Part shown: positions 7,026 through 51,674 of the stretch, one piece after another
How the letters are laid out: every line of letters begins with the position of its first letter
Numbering within the stretch: position 1 is the first letter of the stretch
From: an uncultured Ignavibacteria bacterium
GTDB taxonomy: Bacteria; Bacteroidota; Ignavibacteria; Tepidaquicellales; OLB5
DNA: 64,000 bases
Direction: 5' to 3'
NCBI GenBank assembly: GCA_937873695.1
Contig: CALMYL010000008.1
Coordinates: 299,369 to 363,368, forward strand
Program-made: the position numbers and the translations under genes
The notes under the pieces: model-generated
Told to the model about the DNA's origin: nothing
Database searches by the model: none
The model's input: the letters and a program-made list of their open reading frames with translations, nothing else

Positions 7026-7098
7026 GGACAGGTAGCTCAGTAGGTAGAGCAACGGCCTGAAAAGCCGTGTGTCGCCGGTTCGATTCCGGCCCTGTCCA
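7026..7098 (+). tRNA. tRNA-Phe (GAA anticodon)
   Basis: Full cloverleaf of 73 nt. Acceptor GGACAGG pairs with CCTGTCC, followed by discriminator A. The D arm has TAGCTCAGTAGGTAGAGCA. The anticodon stem ACGGC/GCCGT encloses the loop CTGAAAA with anticodon GAA, and the T arm has GGTTCGATTCC. CCA is not encoded, so it must be added after transcription. It is followed 28 bp later by tRNA-Pro. Confidence 0.97.
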
Positions 7099-7126: not shown

Positions 7127-7201
7127 CGGGATATAGCGTAGTCCGGTTATCGCGCCTGCTTTGGGAGCAGGAGGTCGCAGGTTCGAATCCTGCTATCCCG
7201 A
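7127..7201 (+). tRNA. tRNA-Pro (TGG anticodon)
   Basis: Full cloverleaf of 75 nt. Acceptor CGGGATA pairs with TATCCCG plus discriminator A. The 5' C1 is characteristic of proline tRNAs. The anticodon stem CCTGC/GCAGG encloses TTTGGGA with anticodon TGG. The T arm is GCAGGTTCGAATCCTGC. CCA is not encoded. It is probably co-transcribed with tRNA-Phe. Confidence 0.97.
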
Positions 7202-15054: not shown

Positions 15055-15198
15055 AGCCGTTATTGGACTGTAGTTTTCTCCCTGTTTTTTGGTGAAAAAT
15101 CCCCGGATTATCGGTCTGTTGTTATCCATTCATTTGTGAACCCTTTCATTTATATAAAATGTTTATTATTATGTAAATACATAATCAAAACCATAGAT

Positions 15199-16263
15199 AT
15201 GAACGATAAGAAAAAACTTGCGCAATTCATACTGCTAATGGCAATAACTTTCCTTATGATATATATCTGCTGGCTGATGATAAAGCCGCTTGTGTCCGTT
15301 CTGTTGTGGTCATCAATTCTGGTGATAATATTTTTCCCGTTATATAAAAAACTTATATCAAAAATAAAGAATCACACCATTTGTGCAATAATTACTATCC
15401 TTGCATCTCTTCTGATATTTATAATTCCATTAACCCTTATTTCAGCGGCGGTAGTAAATGAGCTGGCCGGAATTGCAGCAACTACAGTTAACAATGTACA
15501 GGAAATGATTAAACATCCCGAAAGCGGGCAATTGAAATATGTGTATGATATTATCAGCCAATATGTGAATCTGGAAGAGATCGTTAAATCAGAAGAACTT
15601 AAAAGCATCGCAGGCAGGCTCAGCGAAACAGCCCTGCAGGCTTCCTGGTATGTGCTTGGTGGTGTAGCCGGAACACTTGTTAGCATTTTCTTTGCCATTT
15701 TTACTATGTTCTATTTGTTCCGCGATGGTGAAAAAATTGTTTCTGATCTTCCCGATATTTTACCGCTTGATAACGACCAGGCAAGAGAACTTATTAAAAG
15801 CACCAGCGATCTTATCAGTGCTACTATTCGCGGATCTTTGATGGTTGCCCTGATGCAGGGGGTACTGGCGGGCCTTATGTTCTGGATACTCGGAATCCCC
15901 AGTTACCTGGTGCTTGGAATGGTAACAATGATATTTGCACTCATACCGACGGGCGGAACGGCATTTGTAACTGGTCCGGTTATAATAATACTTGCCCTTA
16001 CCGGCGAATACTGGAAGGCGGGCATTTTACTTGTATATGCTTCACTTGTTATAGGTATGGTCGATAACTTCCTGCTGCCCCGTTTGATAAAGCAGAAAGC
16101 AAAGATGAATGAGTTGTTTGTTTTCTTTTCAGTAATTGGGGGAATACAGCTCTTCGGTATACTTGGTTTGTTCTTAGGTCCGATAATACTTGCAATAGCA
16201 ATCGGACTCCTGACAGTATTTAAAGGCGGAAAGATAAATAAAGAGCAAATTACGGTGCAATAA
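15199..16263 (+). CDS. AI-2E family (PF01594) membrane transporter
   Basis: About 354 residues with roughly eight membrane helices in the AI-2E arrangement: two N-terminal pairs, a cytoplasmic helical region (about 115-175), a helix near 180-205 ending in FYLFRDGEK, then the conserved C-terminal block with MFWILGIPSYLVLG, IFALIPTGG and VDNFLLPRLIKQKAKMNELFVF (within about residues 290-315). Members include TqsA (autoinducer-2 export) and Na+/H+ antiporters; the cargo here is unknown. The ATG at 15199 is preferred to the longer frame from 15136. Its last codon and stop merge into a heptamer repeat tract. Confidence 0.88.
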   Translation: MNDKKKLAQFILLMAITFLMIYICWLMIKPLVSVLLWSSILVIIFFPLYKKLISKIKNHTICAIITILASLLIFIIPLTLISAAVVNELAGIAATTVNNVQEMIKHPESGQLKYVYDIISQYVNLEEIVKSEELKSIAGRLSETALQASWYVLGGVAGTLVSIFFAIFTMFYLFRDGEKIVSDLPDILPLDNDQARELIKSTSDLISATIRGSLMVALMQGVLAGLMFWILGIPSYLVLGMVTMIFALIPTGGTAFVTGPVIIILALTGEYWKAGILLVYASLVIGMVDNFLLPRLIKQKAKMNELFVFFSVIGGIQLFGILGLFLGPIILAIAIGLLTVFKGGKINKEQITVQ

Positions 16264-16298
16264 ACAATGAACAATGAGCAATGAGCAATAAACAATAA
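16257..16298. repeat. Degenerate heptamer tract (CAATGAR type), six units
   Basis: Six consecutive 7-bp units: GCAATAA, ACAATGA, ACAATGA, GCAATGA, GCAATAA, ACAATAA. The first unit contains the last sense codon and the TAA stop of the transporter gene, so the tract begins in coding DNA. One of four such tracts in the window, each placed at a stop codon. Confidence 0.85.
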
Positions 16299-23995: not shown

Positions 23996-24070
23996 TTATT
24001 ATTTTCTCCTTTTTACCGAATACTTTAGTATCAAAGCAAAGTCGGTTTATTTTTTAATTTAATATTTTTT

Positions 24071-24099
24071 TGCCTTTTGCTTTTTGCCTTCTGCCTTAT
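24071..24099. repeat. Degenerate heptamer tract (GGCAAAA type) at a stop codon
   Basis: Read on the minus strand, immediately after the TAA of the cytochrome gene: GGCAGAA, GGCAAAA, AGCAAAA, GGCAAAA. Four period-7 units, purine-rich. Confidence 0.75.
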
Positions 24100-24659
24100 A
24101 AGCCCTTAACATACTTAACCGCCGCGTCAATTTCTTCATCGGTTAGTTTTCCCTTAAACGAAGGCATATCTTCGTCATCATCAGTCTTGCCCTTTTTGCC
24201 GTTCTCAATTATCTGTTTAAGTTTGTTATTGCTGGTACCTTTTACTTCACTTGATGTCAGGTCAGGTACGCCTTCAACTTTGCCCTTGCCATCTTTACCA
24301 TGGCACTTGGCGCATTTCTTTGGCCATATAGCTGCAAAATCAACGTTACTTTCAGGACGCTGATCTTGTTTAAGTGTTTCTTCAAGTTTCTTTTTCTCTT
24401 CTTCTTTTTTCTTCTCTTCCTCTTTCTTTTTTTCTTCTTCCTTTTTCTTGTCATCAGTCTTCACTGAATCTTTCTTCACTTCCTGCTGCTGTGTTTGCTG
24501 CTGGGTATTTTGCTGCTGCTGAATTGTCTGCTGCTGTGTTTTGCTGGTATCCTGGGTTGTTGTGGTGTCATCTTTCTTTCCGCATGATGGCAGTATAACA
24601 GATGCGCTCCAGAAAAGCACCAGAACGATGAAAGTAAAAAATCTTGTTGTTGTTTTCAT
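24096..24659 (-). CDS. Monohaem cytochrome c lipoprotein with low-complexity linker
   Basis: A 187-residue exported electron carrier. The N-terminus has a signal sequence and a lipobox-like LPSC with Cys26, so it is probably a lipoprotein. Residues 41-60 are Gln-rich and 68-92 are alternating KKK/EEE blocks, which form a long charged spacer. The class I cytochrome c domain starts near 105 with haem motif CAKCH (116-120) and a likely axial methionine M165 (EDMPSF). The end LTDEEIDAAVKYVKGL is the usual C-terminal helix. The long spacer would hold the haem away from the membrane. Redox partner unknown. Confidence 0.88.
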   Translation of the reverse strand: MKTTTRFFTFIVLVLFWSASVILPSCGKKDDTTTTQDTSKTQQQTIQQQQNTQQQTQQQEVKKDSVKTDDKKKEEEKKKEEEKKKEEEKKKLEETLKQDQRPESNVDFAAIWPKKCAKCHGKDGKGKVEGVPDLTSSEVKGTSNNKLKQIIENGKKGKTDDDEDMPSFKGKLTDEEIDAAVKYVKGL

Positions 24660-49350: not shown

Positions 49351-50580
49351 ATGCAGGCTAAAGTTTTTGAAAGATTTAATTTTGTGGTTTTTCTGTCGGC
49401 ATTCGCACTCATTGCGTTCGGGCTGGTAGCTATTTACAGCGCTACTTTTGGCAATGAGCTGGTTTCGGGGAATTTTACCAAACAGCTTATTTCAGCATGC
49501 ATAGGGATTATTGTGGTTCTTGCAATTATGTACACTCCCCCAAAGTACCTGGCTATGTCATCATATTTGATCTACGGTTTGGTTATGATACTTCTTATTG
49601 CGGTCATAATCCTGGGCAAGAAGATAAAAGGGCAGACCAGCTGGTTCAGCGTTGGCGGATTTGGTGTTCAGCCATCGGAATTCGCAAAAGTAGCAACAGT
49701 AATGGCTCTTGCTTATTTCCTTTCTAACAAAAATAAGGAAGCTGATGTGACCAAACTGCGTGATTTTATGTACGCTGTTGCAATTTGCCTGGTGCCTGTA
49801 GCTTTAATTATGCTTCAGCCTGATATGGGTACCACTCTTGTATTTCTGTTCCTTTTGCTGCCTGTGCTTTACTGGGCAGGCATGCCCAACTACATAATGT
49901 TTTTCATTGTTGCCCCGGCAATAACGGCGGTTTGCGCCTTTTTGGGTACCTGGTATTTTGTAGCCGCAGTTATTTTCATTGTCGCAATGATGATGGTTTT
50001 TAAGAAGAACATCCTGGTATCTGTAATTGTTGTGTGTATAGCCATAGCCTCGGGTTTTTCCGTTAACATGGTATACAGCAAACTGCAGCCTTACCAGCAG
50101 AAGCGCATACAAAGCATGTTTGACCCGGAATCTGACCCGCTGGGAGCAGGTTACAATGTTATCCAGTCTAAAATCGCTATCGGTTCAGGGGGACTCTCAG
50201 GTAAAGGATTCCTGCAGGGAACTCAGACTCAGCTTAAATACATACCTGAGCAATGGACAGATTTTATCTTCTGCATGGTTGGAGAGGAGTTCGGTTTCGT
50301 TGGCTCAATCGCTGTAGTACTGCTCTTCCTGATCTTAATTTGGCAAACTATTCATATTGCCTTCATTTGCAAGAACCAATTCTTAAGCATATGCTGTATA
50401 GGGTTTGCTACGATCTTTTCGTTCCATATTCTCATAAATCTTGGAATGATAATGGGTATTATGCCGGTTATCGGGATTCCTTTACCCTTTATGAGCTATG
50501 GCGTATCATTTTTGCTCAGCAACCTGATAATGCTTGGAATAATTTTGAATGCATTCAGGAACCGTAAGGAATATGTGTAA
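49351..50580 (+). CDS. rodA: SEDS peptidoglycan polymerase RodA
   Basis: 409 residues with ten membrane helices. SEDS motifs: QPSEFAKVATVMALAYFLS, LQPDMGTTLVFLFLLLP, SDPLGAGYNVIQSKIAIGSGG, EQWTDFIFCMVGEEFGFVGS and GIPLPFMSYG. It polymerises glycan strands in partnership with PBP2. It is the last gene of the mre operon. Its last codons and stop run into a heptamer tract. Confidence 0.95.
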   Translation: MQAKVFERFNFVVFLSAFALIAFGLVAIYSATFGNELVSGNFTKQLISACIGIIVVLAIMYTPPKYLAMSSYLIYGLVMILLIAVIILGKKIKGQTSWFSVGGFGVQPSEFAKVATVMALAYFLSNKNKEADVTKLRDFMYAVAICLVPVALIMLQPDMGTTLVFLFLLLPVLYWAGMPNYIMFFIVAPAITAVCAFLGTWYFVAAVIFIVAMMMVFKKNILVSVIVVCIAIASGFSVNMVYSKLQPYQQKRIQSMFDPESDPLGAGYNVIQSKIAIGSGGLSGKGFLQGTQTQLKYIPEQWTDFIFCMVGEEFGFVGSIAVVLLFLILIWQTIHIAFICKNQFLSICCIGFATIFSFHILINLGMIMGIMPVIGIPLPFMSYGVSFLLSNLIMLGIILNAFRNRKEYV

Positions 50581-50629
50581 TGTGAAACGTCAAACGTGAA
50601 ATTTGAAAAGCGAAACGTGAGATATGAAA
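50574..50629. repeat. Degenerate heptamer tract (NGTGAAA type), eight units
   Basis: Units: TGTGTAA, TGTGAAA, CGTCAAA, CGTGAAA, TTTGAAA, AGCGAAA, CGTGAGA, TATGAAA. The first unit includes the rodA stop TAA; the others follow without interruption. Confidence 0.85.
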
Positions 50630-50691
50630 AGGTTTGAGTATATAGTAAGTAATGAGTATTCTAAAATATTTTAATAAGTATATTATGATTG

Positions 50692-50744
50692 CCACGACCT
50701 TTAGGTCGTGGATAAAAATACTCAAAAAAATAGGGCTTTAGCCC
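50692..50744. repeat. Palindrome pair before the AT-rich orphan
   Basis: CCACGACC-TTTA-GGTCGTGG (50692-50711) and GGGCTTTAGCCC (50733-50744), 21 bp apart. Pairs like this resemble REP elements handled by Y1/RAYT transposases, but no such transposase is here. Confidence 0.7.
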
Positions 50745-50752
50745 CAAACGAT

Positions 50753-51649
50753 ATGATACGAAACGATAAAGAGTTAATAAAAGAGGTCAAGCGATATTTT
50801 GGAAAAGATAGACGATTATTAAAAAGAACAATCAAGTCGTTATATACGAATGAAAAAGATATAGATTATTGGAATAAATTCTTTAGTAATTTATGTCCTG
50901 ATAAATATGAAGTAAATGGAAGAATCTTACAAGAGACAGTAGATGCAATATATTCGCAAAAATTTGATAATATTGATTGGAACTTTGTTGGAGATTTTAG
51001 CTGGGATGTGGATATTATTTTGAATAATGAAATTACTTCTCATTTAGATTTCGATAAAAAGCTAACTGCAAAATGCAAAAACAATACCGCTCGGTTTTTG
51101 AATATTTATATTTCTGAAATAATCCCGGCTTTTGCAATTTGCACTTTTTGTAAGTATTATAAAGTGAATGTATACGAGTTTGGACCTTTAAAGCTAAGTG
51201 AAGCTGAAAAAAACTTAATTAATAAAATTAAGAGTGAACTAAAGAAAAAAGGATATTATTATGTTAAAAAACAGATTGCGCTAAAAAAGTTTAAGGATTT
51301 AAGATCAGATCTCAACTCTGAGGGAAATGCTTCAATTTTTGATTGTTTATTTAATGATATGGATAATTATACTGATGATTATTTTAGATGTAATGACGAA
51401 GATATCGTTGATTCCTTTGGTAGAAAGACATTGTGGAGAGAATATTTTGATTCCAAAAGAAAATTGATAAAACGTGAAGATAGTAGGTGGTTCAATTCAG
51501 GTGATTTAGAACAGGTTATCACTAATGGAAAAGGTCAAATAATTGAGGTAAATGTTTACCCAAAGGAAAGTAAACCACGTTCTATTGAATTAAATATTGA
51601 GAAAACAAAGAAAAAATATAAAAATAAATATTCAGTAAATTTACCATAA
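50753..51649 (+). CDS. AT-rich orphan protein of unknown function
   Basis: A 298-residue soluble protein. The start is set at ATG 50753, after the palindrome; the longer frame from a GTG at 50708 would run through both hairpins and read a low-quality leader. It is rich in Lys, Asn, Asp, Ile and Tyr, and the DNA is plainly more AT-rich than the neighbours. No domain is recognised; a patch with two Cys (AICTFCKYYKVNVYEF, about 140-155) and a lysine-rich end. The base use and the palindrome and heptamer flanks hint at a foreign or transient insert. It lies between mre and pyr genes on the same strand. Confidence 0.65.
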   Translation: MIRNDKELIKEVKRYFGKDRRLLKRTIKSLYTNEKDIDYWNKFFSNLCPDKYEVNGRILQETVDAIYSQKFDNIDWNFVGDFSWDVDIILNNEITSHLDFDKKLTAKCKNNTARFLNIYISEIIPAFAICTFCKYYKVNVYEFGPLKLSEAEKNLINKIKSELKKKGYYYVKKQIALKKFKDLRSDLNSEGNASIFDCLFNDMDNYTDDYFRCNDEDIVDSFGRKTLWREYFDSKRKLIKREDSRWFNSGDLEQVITNGKGQIIEVNVYPKESKPRSIELNIEKTKKKYKNKYSVNLP

Positions 51650-51674
51650 TTCCTAATTCGTAATTTATAATTGA
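51647..51674. repeat. Degenerate heptamer tract (TAATTNN type) at a stop codon
   Basis: TAATTCC, TAATTCG, TAATTTA, TAATTGA. The first TAA is the stop codon of the orphan gene. Confidence 0.8.

Follow-up and report, generated by a model that had tools for sequence, protein, structure and literature searches.

Heptanucleotide tracts at stop codons in an Ignavibacteria genus keep their place and period while their units are replaced

Why should tandem repeats that differ in their units, and share only a period of 7 nt, begin at the stop codons of unrelated genes? The question is raised by a stretch of 64,000 nucleotides from an uncultured Ignavibacteria bacterium (contig CALMYL010000008.1 of assembly GCA_937873695.1), here called the window. 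In this stretch rodA (49351-50580, + strand), assigned by its translation to the FtsW/RodA/SpoVE family (PF01098, E 2.4e-90), has an open reading frame ending in TAA at 50578-50580, and this stop anchors a heptad tract at 50574-50629 (+). The tract consists of eight units of the GTGAAAC/GTCAAAC type (TGTGTAA TGTGAAA CGTCAAA CGTGAAA TTTGAAA AGCGAAA CGTGAGA TATGAAA), the first of which spans the stop codon, and was found on direct reading exactly as an earlier sequence-only reading had described it. That reading had also reported three further period-7 tracts starting at stops. All three exist and either adjoin a stop codon or overlap it: CAATGAA/CAATGAG units at 16258-16298 (+) lie at the end of an AI-2E family transporter gene (15136-16263, +), whose stop at 16263 falls within the tract; a tract at 24068-24097 (-), which reads GGCAAAA/GGCAGAA on the coding strand, lies directly 3' of the stop (24096-24098) of a cytochrome c gene (24096-24659, -); and TAATTCC/CGTAATT units at 51647-51672 (+) lie at the stop (51647-51649) of orfX (50708-51649, +), a frame of 313 aa for which the gene caller gave the ATG at 50753 as the likelier start and for which searches of Pfam and NCBIfam returned no match. 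A strict scan for lags across the window (score of at least 14) gave two segments for period 7 and two, one and one for periods 15, 18 and 21, respectively, and none for the other periods from 4 to 24 or in ten order-1 Markov sequences. Lowering the threshold to 10 gave four period-7 matches, which are exactly these four tracts, and a consensus detector recovered the same four together with one weak match within rodA (49778-49798). The Rfam matches in the window were two tRNA genes only (7026-7098 and 7127-7201).

The tract at 51647 is at a stop codon today, but its association with orfX is secondary. In the relatives examined rodA adjoins pyrF (OMP decarboxylase, PF00215; 51681-52499, + in the window), although L066, a short locus, yielded no pyrF, and the spacer between the two genes measures 2 and 8 nt in two outgroup genera. 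In congeners lacking orfX it extends over 40-172 nt and is largely made up of heptad tracts, of the GTGAAAC/GTCAAAC or GGCAAAA type on the rodA side and of the CTATCAA or TAATTCC type on the pyrF side. The rodA tract has thus enlarged the spacer, and length is therefore not always held. Among the congeners examined, only the window genome (G000) and G002 carry orfX and REP-like hairpins (CCACGACC...GGTCGTGG; GGGCTTTAGCCC; 50688-50751, no strand assigned) between the two spacer tracts, and it is because of this arrangement that the 51647 tract begins at the orfX stop: it is the older, pyrF-proximal part of the spacer, in front of which orfX was inserted. The same REP-like hairpins recur across the genome sample, and a small element, CCTTCCTTCGCTTCGCTCA.TAAGGCAGG, was seen with its reverse within the heptad tracts of several rodA and nadE spacers (L011, L013, L234).

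Position of the tracts relative to stop codons

The genome of the window comprises 3.78 Mb in 30 contigs. Our own sample consisted of its complete contigs C8 and C7 (846 kb, 22% of the genome), to which 800 kb of a congener, G009, were added. Genes were called with a simple phased Markov model, and a tract was recorded where a 28-nt window matched a 7-column consensus at 23 or more positions. This detector found 99 period-7 tracts (30, 24, 20 and 25 in the four stretches; 54 in our own sample and 45 in G009), compared with a total of eight (3, 2, 3 and 0) in order-3 Markov controls. Only 17 tracts were located in coding DNA (9 own, 8 G009), while 82 were intergenic, and the 81 with called genes on both flanks comprised 62 between same-strand genes, 12 between convergent and 7 between divergent genes. 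Each genome contains multiple types of heptamer unit, mainly between genes and in excess over other periods. Extrapolation gives about 200 tracts per genome, and within the Ignavibacteria group sampled they follow the stops of about one gene in 20. In an order-level relative, G028, 29 tracts were present in 200 kb, with units such as AGTATTG, AGTATAA and GAATTCA.

The tracts are concentrated at stop codons. Between same-strand genes 43 of 62 began within 10 nt of the stop, a number well outside 5000 draws of uniform placement, whose mean was 13.9 and whose highest value was 25, and 9 of the 62 lay equally close to the next start. Among convergent tracts 11 of 12 were at a stop. The corresponding numbers for control periods were low (10/74 for period 5, 1/9 for period 6 and 3/13 for period 8), and none of 44 REP-like hairpins in the same spacers lay within 10 nt of a stop, the 44 being matches to two patterns that may share loci. 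Counting all tracts irrespective of their setting, 33 of 54 in our own sample and 21 of 45 in G009 were within 10 nt of a stop, a zone that accounts for 6% of intergenic bases. The sequence-only reading had held that the pattern would be chance if most period-7 tracts of the genome lay away from stops; in the 846 kb sampled the majority lie at them. In G028, 11/20 tracts between same-strand genes and 4/6 between convergent genes were within 10 nt of a stop.

A similar picture was obtained without a detector, by scoring how far lag-7 matches exceeded those at other lags in bins counted from stops and starts. The excess peaked in the first 0-20 nt after stops (own sample +0.039, z 6.4; G028 +0.081, z 5.7; G009 +0.013, z 1.9) and came near background past about 30-45 nt in our own sample and G009 or 60-90 nt in G028, with a second rise in our own sample in the bin 90-150 nt after stops (z 3.7). 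Bins adjoining starts had no such excess, and in G028 an excess was found 60-150 nt upstream of starts. A diffuse weak periodicity as the source of this signal was rejected, since removal of the tract regions abolished the excess in our own sample and in G009 and left it weak in G028; the signal therefore comes from discrete tracts. When a strict null confined placement to the stretch that runs from the stop as far as the first hairpin, or to 50 nt before the next start, the number of anchored tracts still exceeded expectation in our own sample (26/34 versus 17.3) and in G009 (17/28 versus 11.4, P 0.002), while the result for G028 was not significant (11/20 versus 10.7). Where the free room was 50 nt or more, 10 of 17 own tracts were anchored, with 3.6 expected. 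Together, the placement nulls, the convergent tracts and the lag-7 excess bear out the suggestion that the association with stops is not a matter of chance, and the pattern is real, quantifiable and lineage-wide.

Replacement of units at orthologous stops

The congeners serve as natural replicates, in which the same stops of closely related species are followed by different units. At the cytochrome c stop the unit is GGCAAAA in G000, CAATGAG in G003, GTGAAAC/CTCAAAT in G001 and CAAATAG in G008; a weaker tract, AAATAG, is present in G006; in G002 the tail of the gene is duplicated and then followed by CAATGAA, and G009 has no tract at this stop. In nadE (NAD+ synthase) six loci share a conserved GGCGC...GCGTC-TTTT terminator 39-46 nt past the stop, and the gap between the two is occupied by GGTTGCA (three loci), CAATGAG (two) or GAATTAG (one) units, the distance keeping to this range whatever the unit. 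Over six genes that were hand-picked as tract carriers, 27 of 48 congener ortholog stops bore a tract (rodA 11/12, AI-2E transporter 1/7, cytochrome c 4/6 genomes, nadE 6/9 loci, C7-133 gene 3/6, epimerase gene 2/8); two rodA outgroups (0/2) were excluded from this count, and for rodA the four shortest spacers were scored by their TAATTC tract. The base rate in G009 was 21 of 441 stops. Moreover, among reciprocal-best gene pairs of our own sample and G009, tracts were present in both members of 5 pairs, only in our own member of 12, only in the G009 member of 5 and in neither member of 236 (odds ratio 19.7, p 1.4e-4). Tracts thus stay at a stop, or come back to it, far more often than chance would allow, but turnover is high. 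Some ortholog stops have no tract at all, as in the AI-2E transporter and epimerase genes, which implies that any selection is weak or gene-specific.

Units within a tract resemble each other more than they resemble the units at the orthologous stop of another species. Mean lag-7 identity within tracts was 0.75-0.80 per locus, whereas between species the consensus heptamers, compared in their best rotation with shuffled heptamers as the reference, matched at 4.36 of 7 positions for rodA (shuffled 3.76), 4.14 for nadE (3.73) and 4.20 for cytochrome c (4.23). Some similarity was retained at the C7-133 gene (4.50 versus 3.63) and the epimerase gene (5.67 versus 4.87). In 27 genus tracts of at least 42 nt, unit identity decayed with distance, from 0.744 at lag 7 through 0.745, 0.711, 0.690, 0.658 and 0.644 to 0.621 at lag 49, with values of 0.28-0.30 at off-register lags. 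Retention of the period together with an exchange of units at orthologous stops amounts to concerted evolution. The decay by itself points to local copying only, for which slippage would be a plausible step; on template-copying repair, another cause listed in the sequence-only reading, it says no more than that copying is local. What outlives the letters is the place and the period.

The tracts of the genus also have a direction. In 43 of 54 anchored tracts CA[AG] triplets dominated the coding strand (reverse in 7, ties in 4), and this bias held for genes on both chromosome strands. AT skew averaged +0.29 in 56 anchored tracts, 42 of them with positive values, versus +0.02 in 830 tract-free 45-mers following stops. 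The CA[AG] bias was absent from G028. Predicted RNA structure was lower within tracts, with a difference that was not significant (p 0.07). Median distances from stop to hairpin were alike with and without a tract (41.5/44, 34/31 and 34/32 nt). An association with terminators was rejected, as there was no consistent link across the three samples: a terminator-like hairpin came after 10/33 stops with a tract and 135/437 without one in our own sample, after 3/21 and 145/420 in G009, and after 8/13 and 25/81 in G028. Type IX secretion tails as a common feature of the genes were likewise discarded, since enrichment was inconsistent (by a loose tail pattern, 1/35 tract genes versus 46/437 others in our own sample, 2/22 versus 53/420 in G009 and 5/15 versus 11/81 in G028). 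The idea that tracts are attC-like ends of gene cassettes was dropped because clustering was seen in one stretch only (G9b, 11 neighbours closer than 5 kb versus 5.9, P 0.008; the other four stretches not significant). A family search showed the tract-bearing genes to be ordinary and diverse, with no obvious highly expressed class among them.

Possible origins of the tracts

The reading that we favour, with modest confidence, is that these are degenerate heptanucleotide tracts akin to the cyanobacterial STRRs, which would be renewed by slippage or template switching, fill the 3' untranslated gap and most likely be weakly selected as a spacer as well. Under this reading slippage in 7-nt steps, or template switching over short distances, would both create the tracts and keep rewriting them. 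Their habitat would run from the stop codon to whatever is constrained next, either a terminator hairpin or the leader of the downstream gene. Coding DNA would exclude them because a change of 7 nt shifts the frame, so that the stop would form the left edge of the habitat and the next constraint its right edge. Since units would be copied from their neighbours with errors, period and place would persist while the wording is replaced, and would outlast it over the divergence of the species of the genus. The part attributed to weak selection would be that of an unstructured and, in the genus, A-rich mRNA spacer between the terminating ribosome and the terminator or next leader. Position, strand orientation and persistence at orthologous stops all agree with a function at mRNA 3' ends, which the sequence-only reading had listed among possible causes. 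Passive filling of the gap alone would produce too little anchoring in the genus, as the excess over the strict null and among tracts with free room indicates, and the birth of tracts near stops therefore needs a cause of its own. Some observations count against the favoured reading, among them the non-significant difference in RNA structure, the ortholog stops that lack tracts, the enlarged rodA spacer and the behaviour of G028, which has neither the strand bias nor significant anchoring under the strict null.

More tentatively, and as a view that we regard as rather doubtful, the tracts might be regarded as a regenerating 3' UTR element at stops that keeps period, strand and place while its letters are rewritten, in which case they would constitute either a heptad-spaced RNA signal that makes hardly any demand on sequence or the trace of a mutation process acting where ribosomes leave. 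For the signal, the specific proposal would be a protein, with a cold-shock or S1-type OB-fold protein as the candidate, that contacts the 3' UTR every 7 nt, has a loose sequence preference and protects the mRNA or governs termination, so that selection would act on spacing and not on the letters. Spacing and strand are indeed kept while units change, by our own reading the units share a loose register NNCARNN on the coding strand, and heptamer binding has been reported for CspB (PMC4679880). However, no conserved column is common to all tracts, G028 is without strand bias, tracts are gained and lost fast and the genes concerned belong to no particular kind; we therefore consider such a reader unlikely. 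For the mutation process, RNA that is free of ribosomes past the stop would form R-loops, and the exposed non-template strand would slip by 7 nt, so that position and strand would follow from the mechanism and no function would be needed. This would account for the onset at the stop, the orientation with the gene on both strands, the lack of a signal before starts and the recurrence of different units at the same stops, but it leaves the step size of 7 unexplained and is at odds with the unbiased strands of G028 and with the lack of an obvious highly expressed class among the genes identified by family search. We rank this hot spot, as an improbable explanation, just after the heptad reader.

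The sequence-only reading had also proposed slippage seeded by the stop region, and the window tract, which opens TGTGTAA TGTGAAA, appears to invite this explanation. When tracts were detected only in the DNA following stops and gene ends were swapped as a control, the stop codons of the genus matched the tract register no better than the swapped ends (82/183 matches versus 77.6, p 0.14), with positions -7 to -4 slightly raised (91/244 versus 73.7, p 0.009). Furthermore, several rodA relatives have an extra A between a TAG stop and the tract (TGTGTAG-A-TGTGAAA), so that the in-phase TGTGTAA is peculiar to the window species, and there is no stop codon in GGCAAAA, GGTTGCA and similar units. In G028 the stop was somewhat in phase with the tract (22/42 versus 17.9, p 0.0055) and TAG was commoner among the stops before tracts than among the others (9/13 versus 14/81), which is in favour of seeding in that relative; for the genus, slippage seeded by the stop-containing heptamer itself is largely refuted and very improbable. 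Chance, or an intergenic repeat blind to stops, is refuted for the genus and hardly credible: although tracts are rare enough for four in one window to be few, and CCCGC-GCGGG palindromes also lay slightly near stops (6/24 own, null 2.8, P 0.04; 1/9 G009), neither the REP-like hairpins nor the control periods reproduce the anchoring, which went far beyond the maximum of the uniform null.

Heptanucleotide repeats in other bacteria

Bacterial heptanucleotide repeats have been noted for decades, with no agreed reason for the number seven or for their placement. The general kind of repeat is thus already known in other bacteria, and the present tracts are a variant of it; among the papers listed in searches of the open-access literature, the only prior description in Ignavibacteria or at stops was that of Rehm et al. 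(2015). These authors described G-rich GGGAATC and GGGGA(C/T)T heptamers in Xanthomonas and Nostoc (PMC4692102). According to that account, the GGGAATC repeats resemble the present tracts in lying mostly between genes of the same direction and rarely between divergent ones, in occurring on the coding strand within 50 bp of stops, in forming inverted pairs (a minority of 17/109 tracts here, with short loops), in sharing gene neighbours between two species while length and sequence vary, and in having no link to phase-variable genes. In contrast to the many AT-rich units found here, however, the GGGAATC repeats consist of one G-rich unit capable of forming G-quadruplexes; moreover, anchoring is tighter in the present tracts (0-10 nt) and shows no preference for the positions just before starts, and whole unit families are replaced at orthologous stops (compare PMC4692102). 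With a longest G run of 0-2 in 53 of 54 anchored tracts, the present sequences would be unable to form G-quadruplexes. The natural replicates therefore rule out these structures as a general cause of such repeats and argue against a fixed binding sequence, and it now becomes possible to distinguish a copying by-product in free 3' DNA, a spacer acting after termination and an RNA signal read in heptads.

The STRRs of Calothrix and Nostoc are similar to the present tracts in that several tandem intergenic heptanucleotides occur per genome, while a position at stops and replacement at orthologous sites are absent from the cited descriptions (PMC4692102, PMC2670836). TAACTGA direct repeats, reported from Beggiatoaceae, Cyanobacteria and a few Bacteroidetes (MacGregor, 2015; PMC4679880), are likewise intergenic tandem heptamers with a patchy distribution over lineages, and as described there 13 sets overlap the upstream stop and one Flexibacter set directly follows a stop. 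They differ in having one fixed unit that lies mostly a few nt upstream of starts in the BOGUAY genome (PMC4679880), whereas the present tracts have variable units at stops and are seldom near starts; none of the four window tracts has a TAACTGA unit. Heptanucleotides were found to be the commonest class of long simple sequence repeats (Mrazek et al., 2007, via PMC4679880), and the preference for 7 nt was explained by polymerase slippage, which bears on the period observed here; as cited, this account is silent on stop codons and unit replacement (PMC4679880). Further heptanucleotide repeats are mentioned in PMC2670836 and PMC2700814.

Within the phylum, the CAATGAG pattern was present in 15 of 148 genomes. 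In four distant ones (G127, G078, G158 and G116) anchoring was weak: by a hand count of stretches that were chosen around CAATGAG matches and are biased accordingly, 9 of 43 tracts between genes were no more than 10 nt from a stop. In G022 period-7 tracts were rare (3 in 200 kb). Large numbers of different heptamer repeats were seen in G174, G159 and G127, and G174 and G159 matched mainly the backward-read control pattern. An example of an inverted tract pair is located in G028 (L196, G028:C1) at about 307-309 kb.
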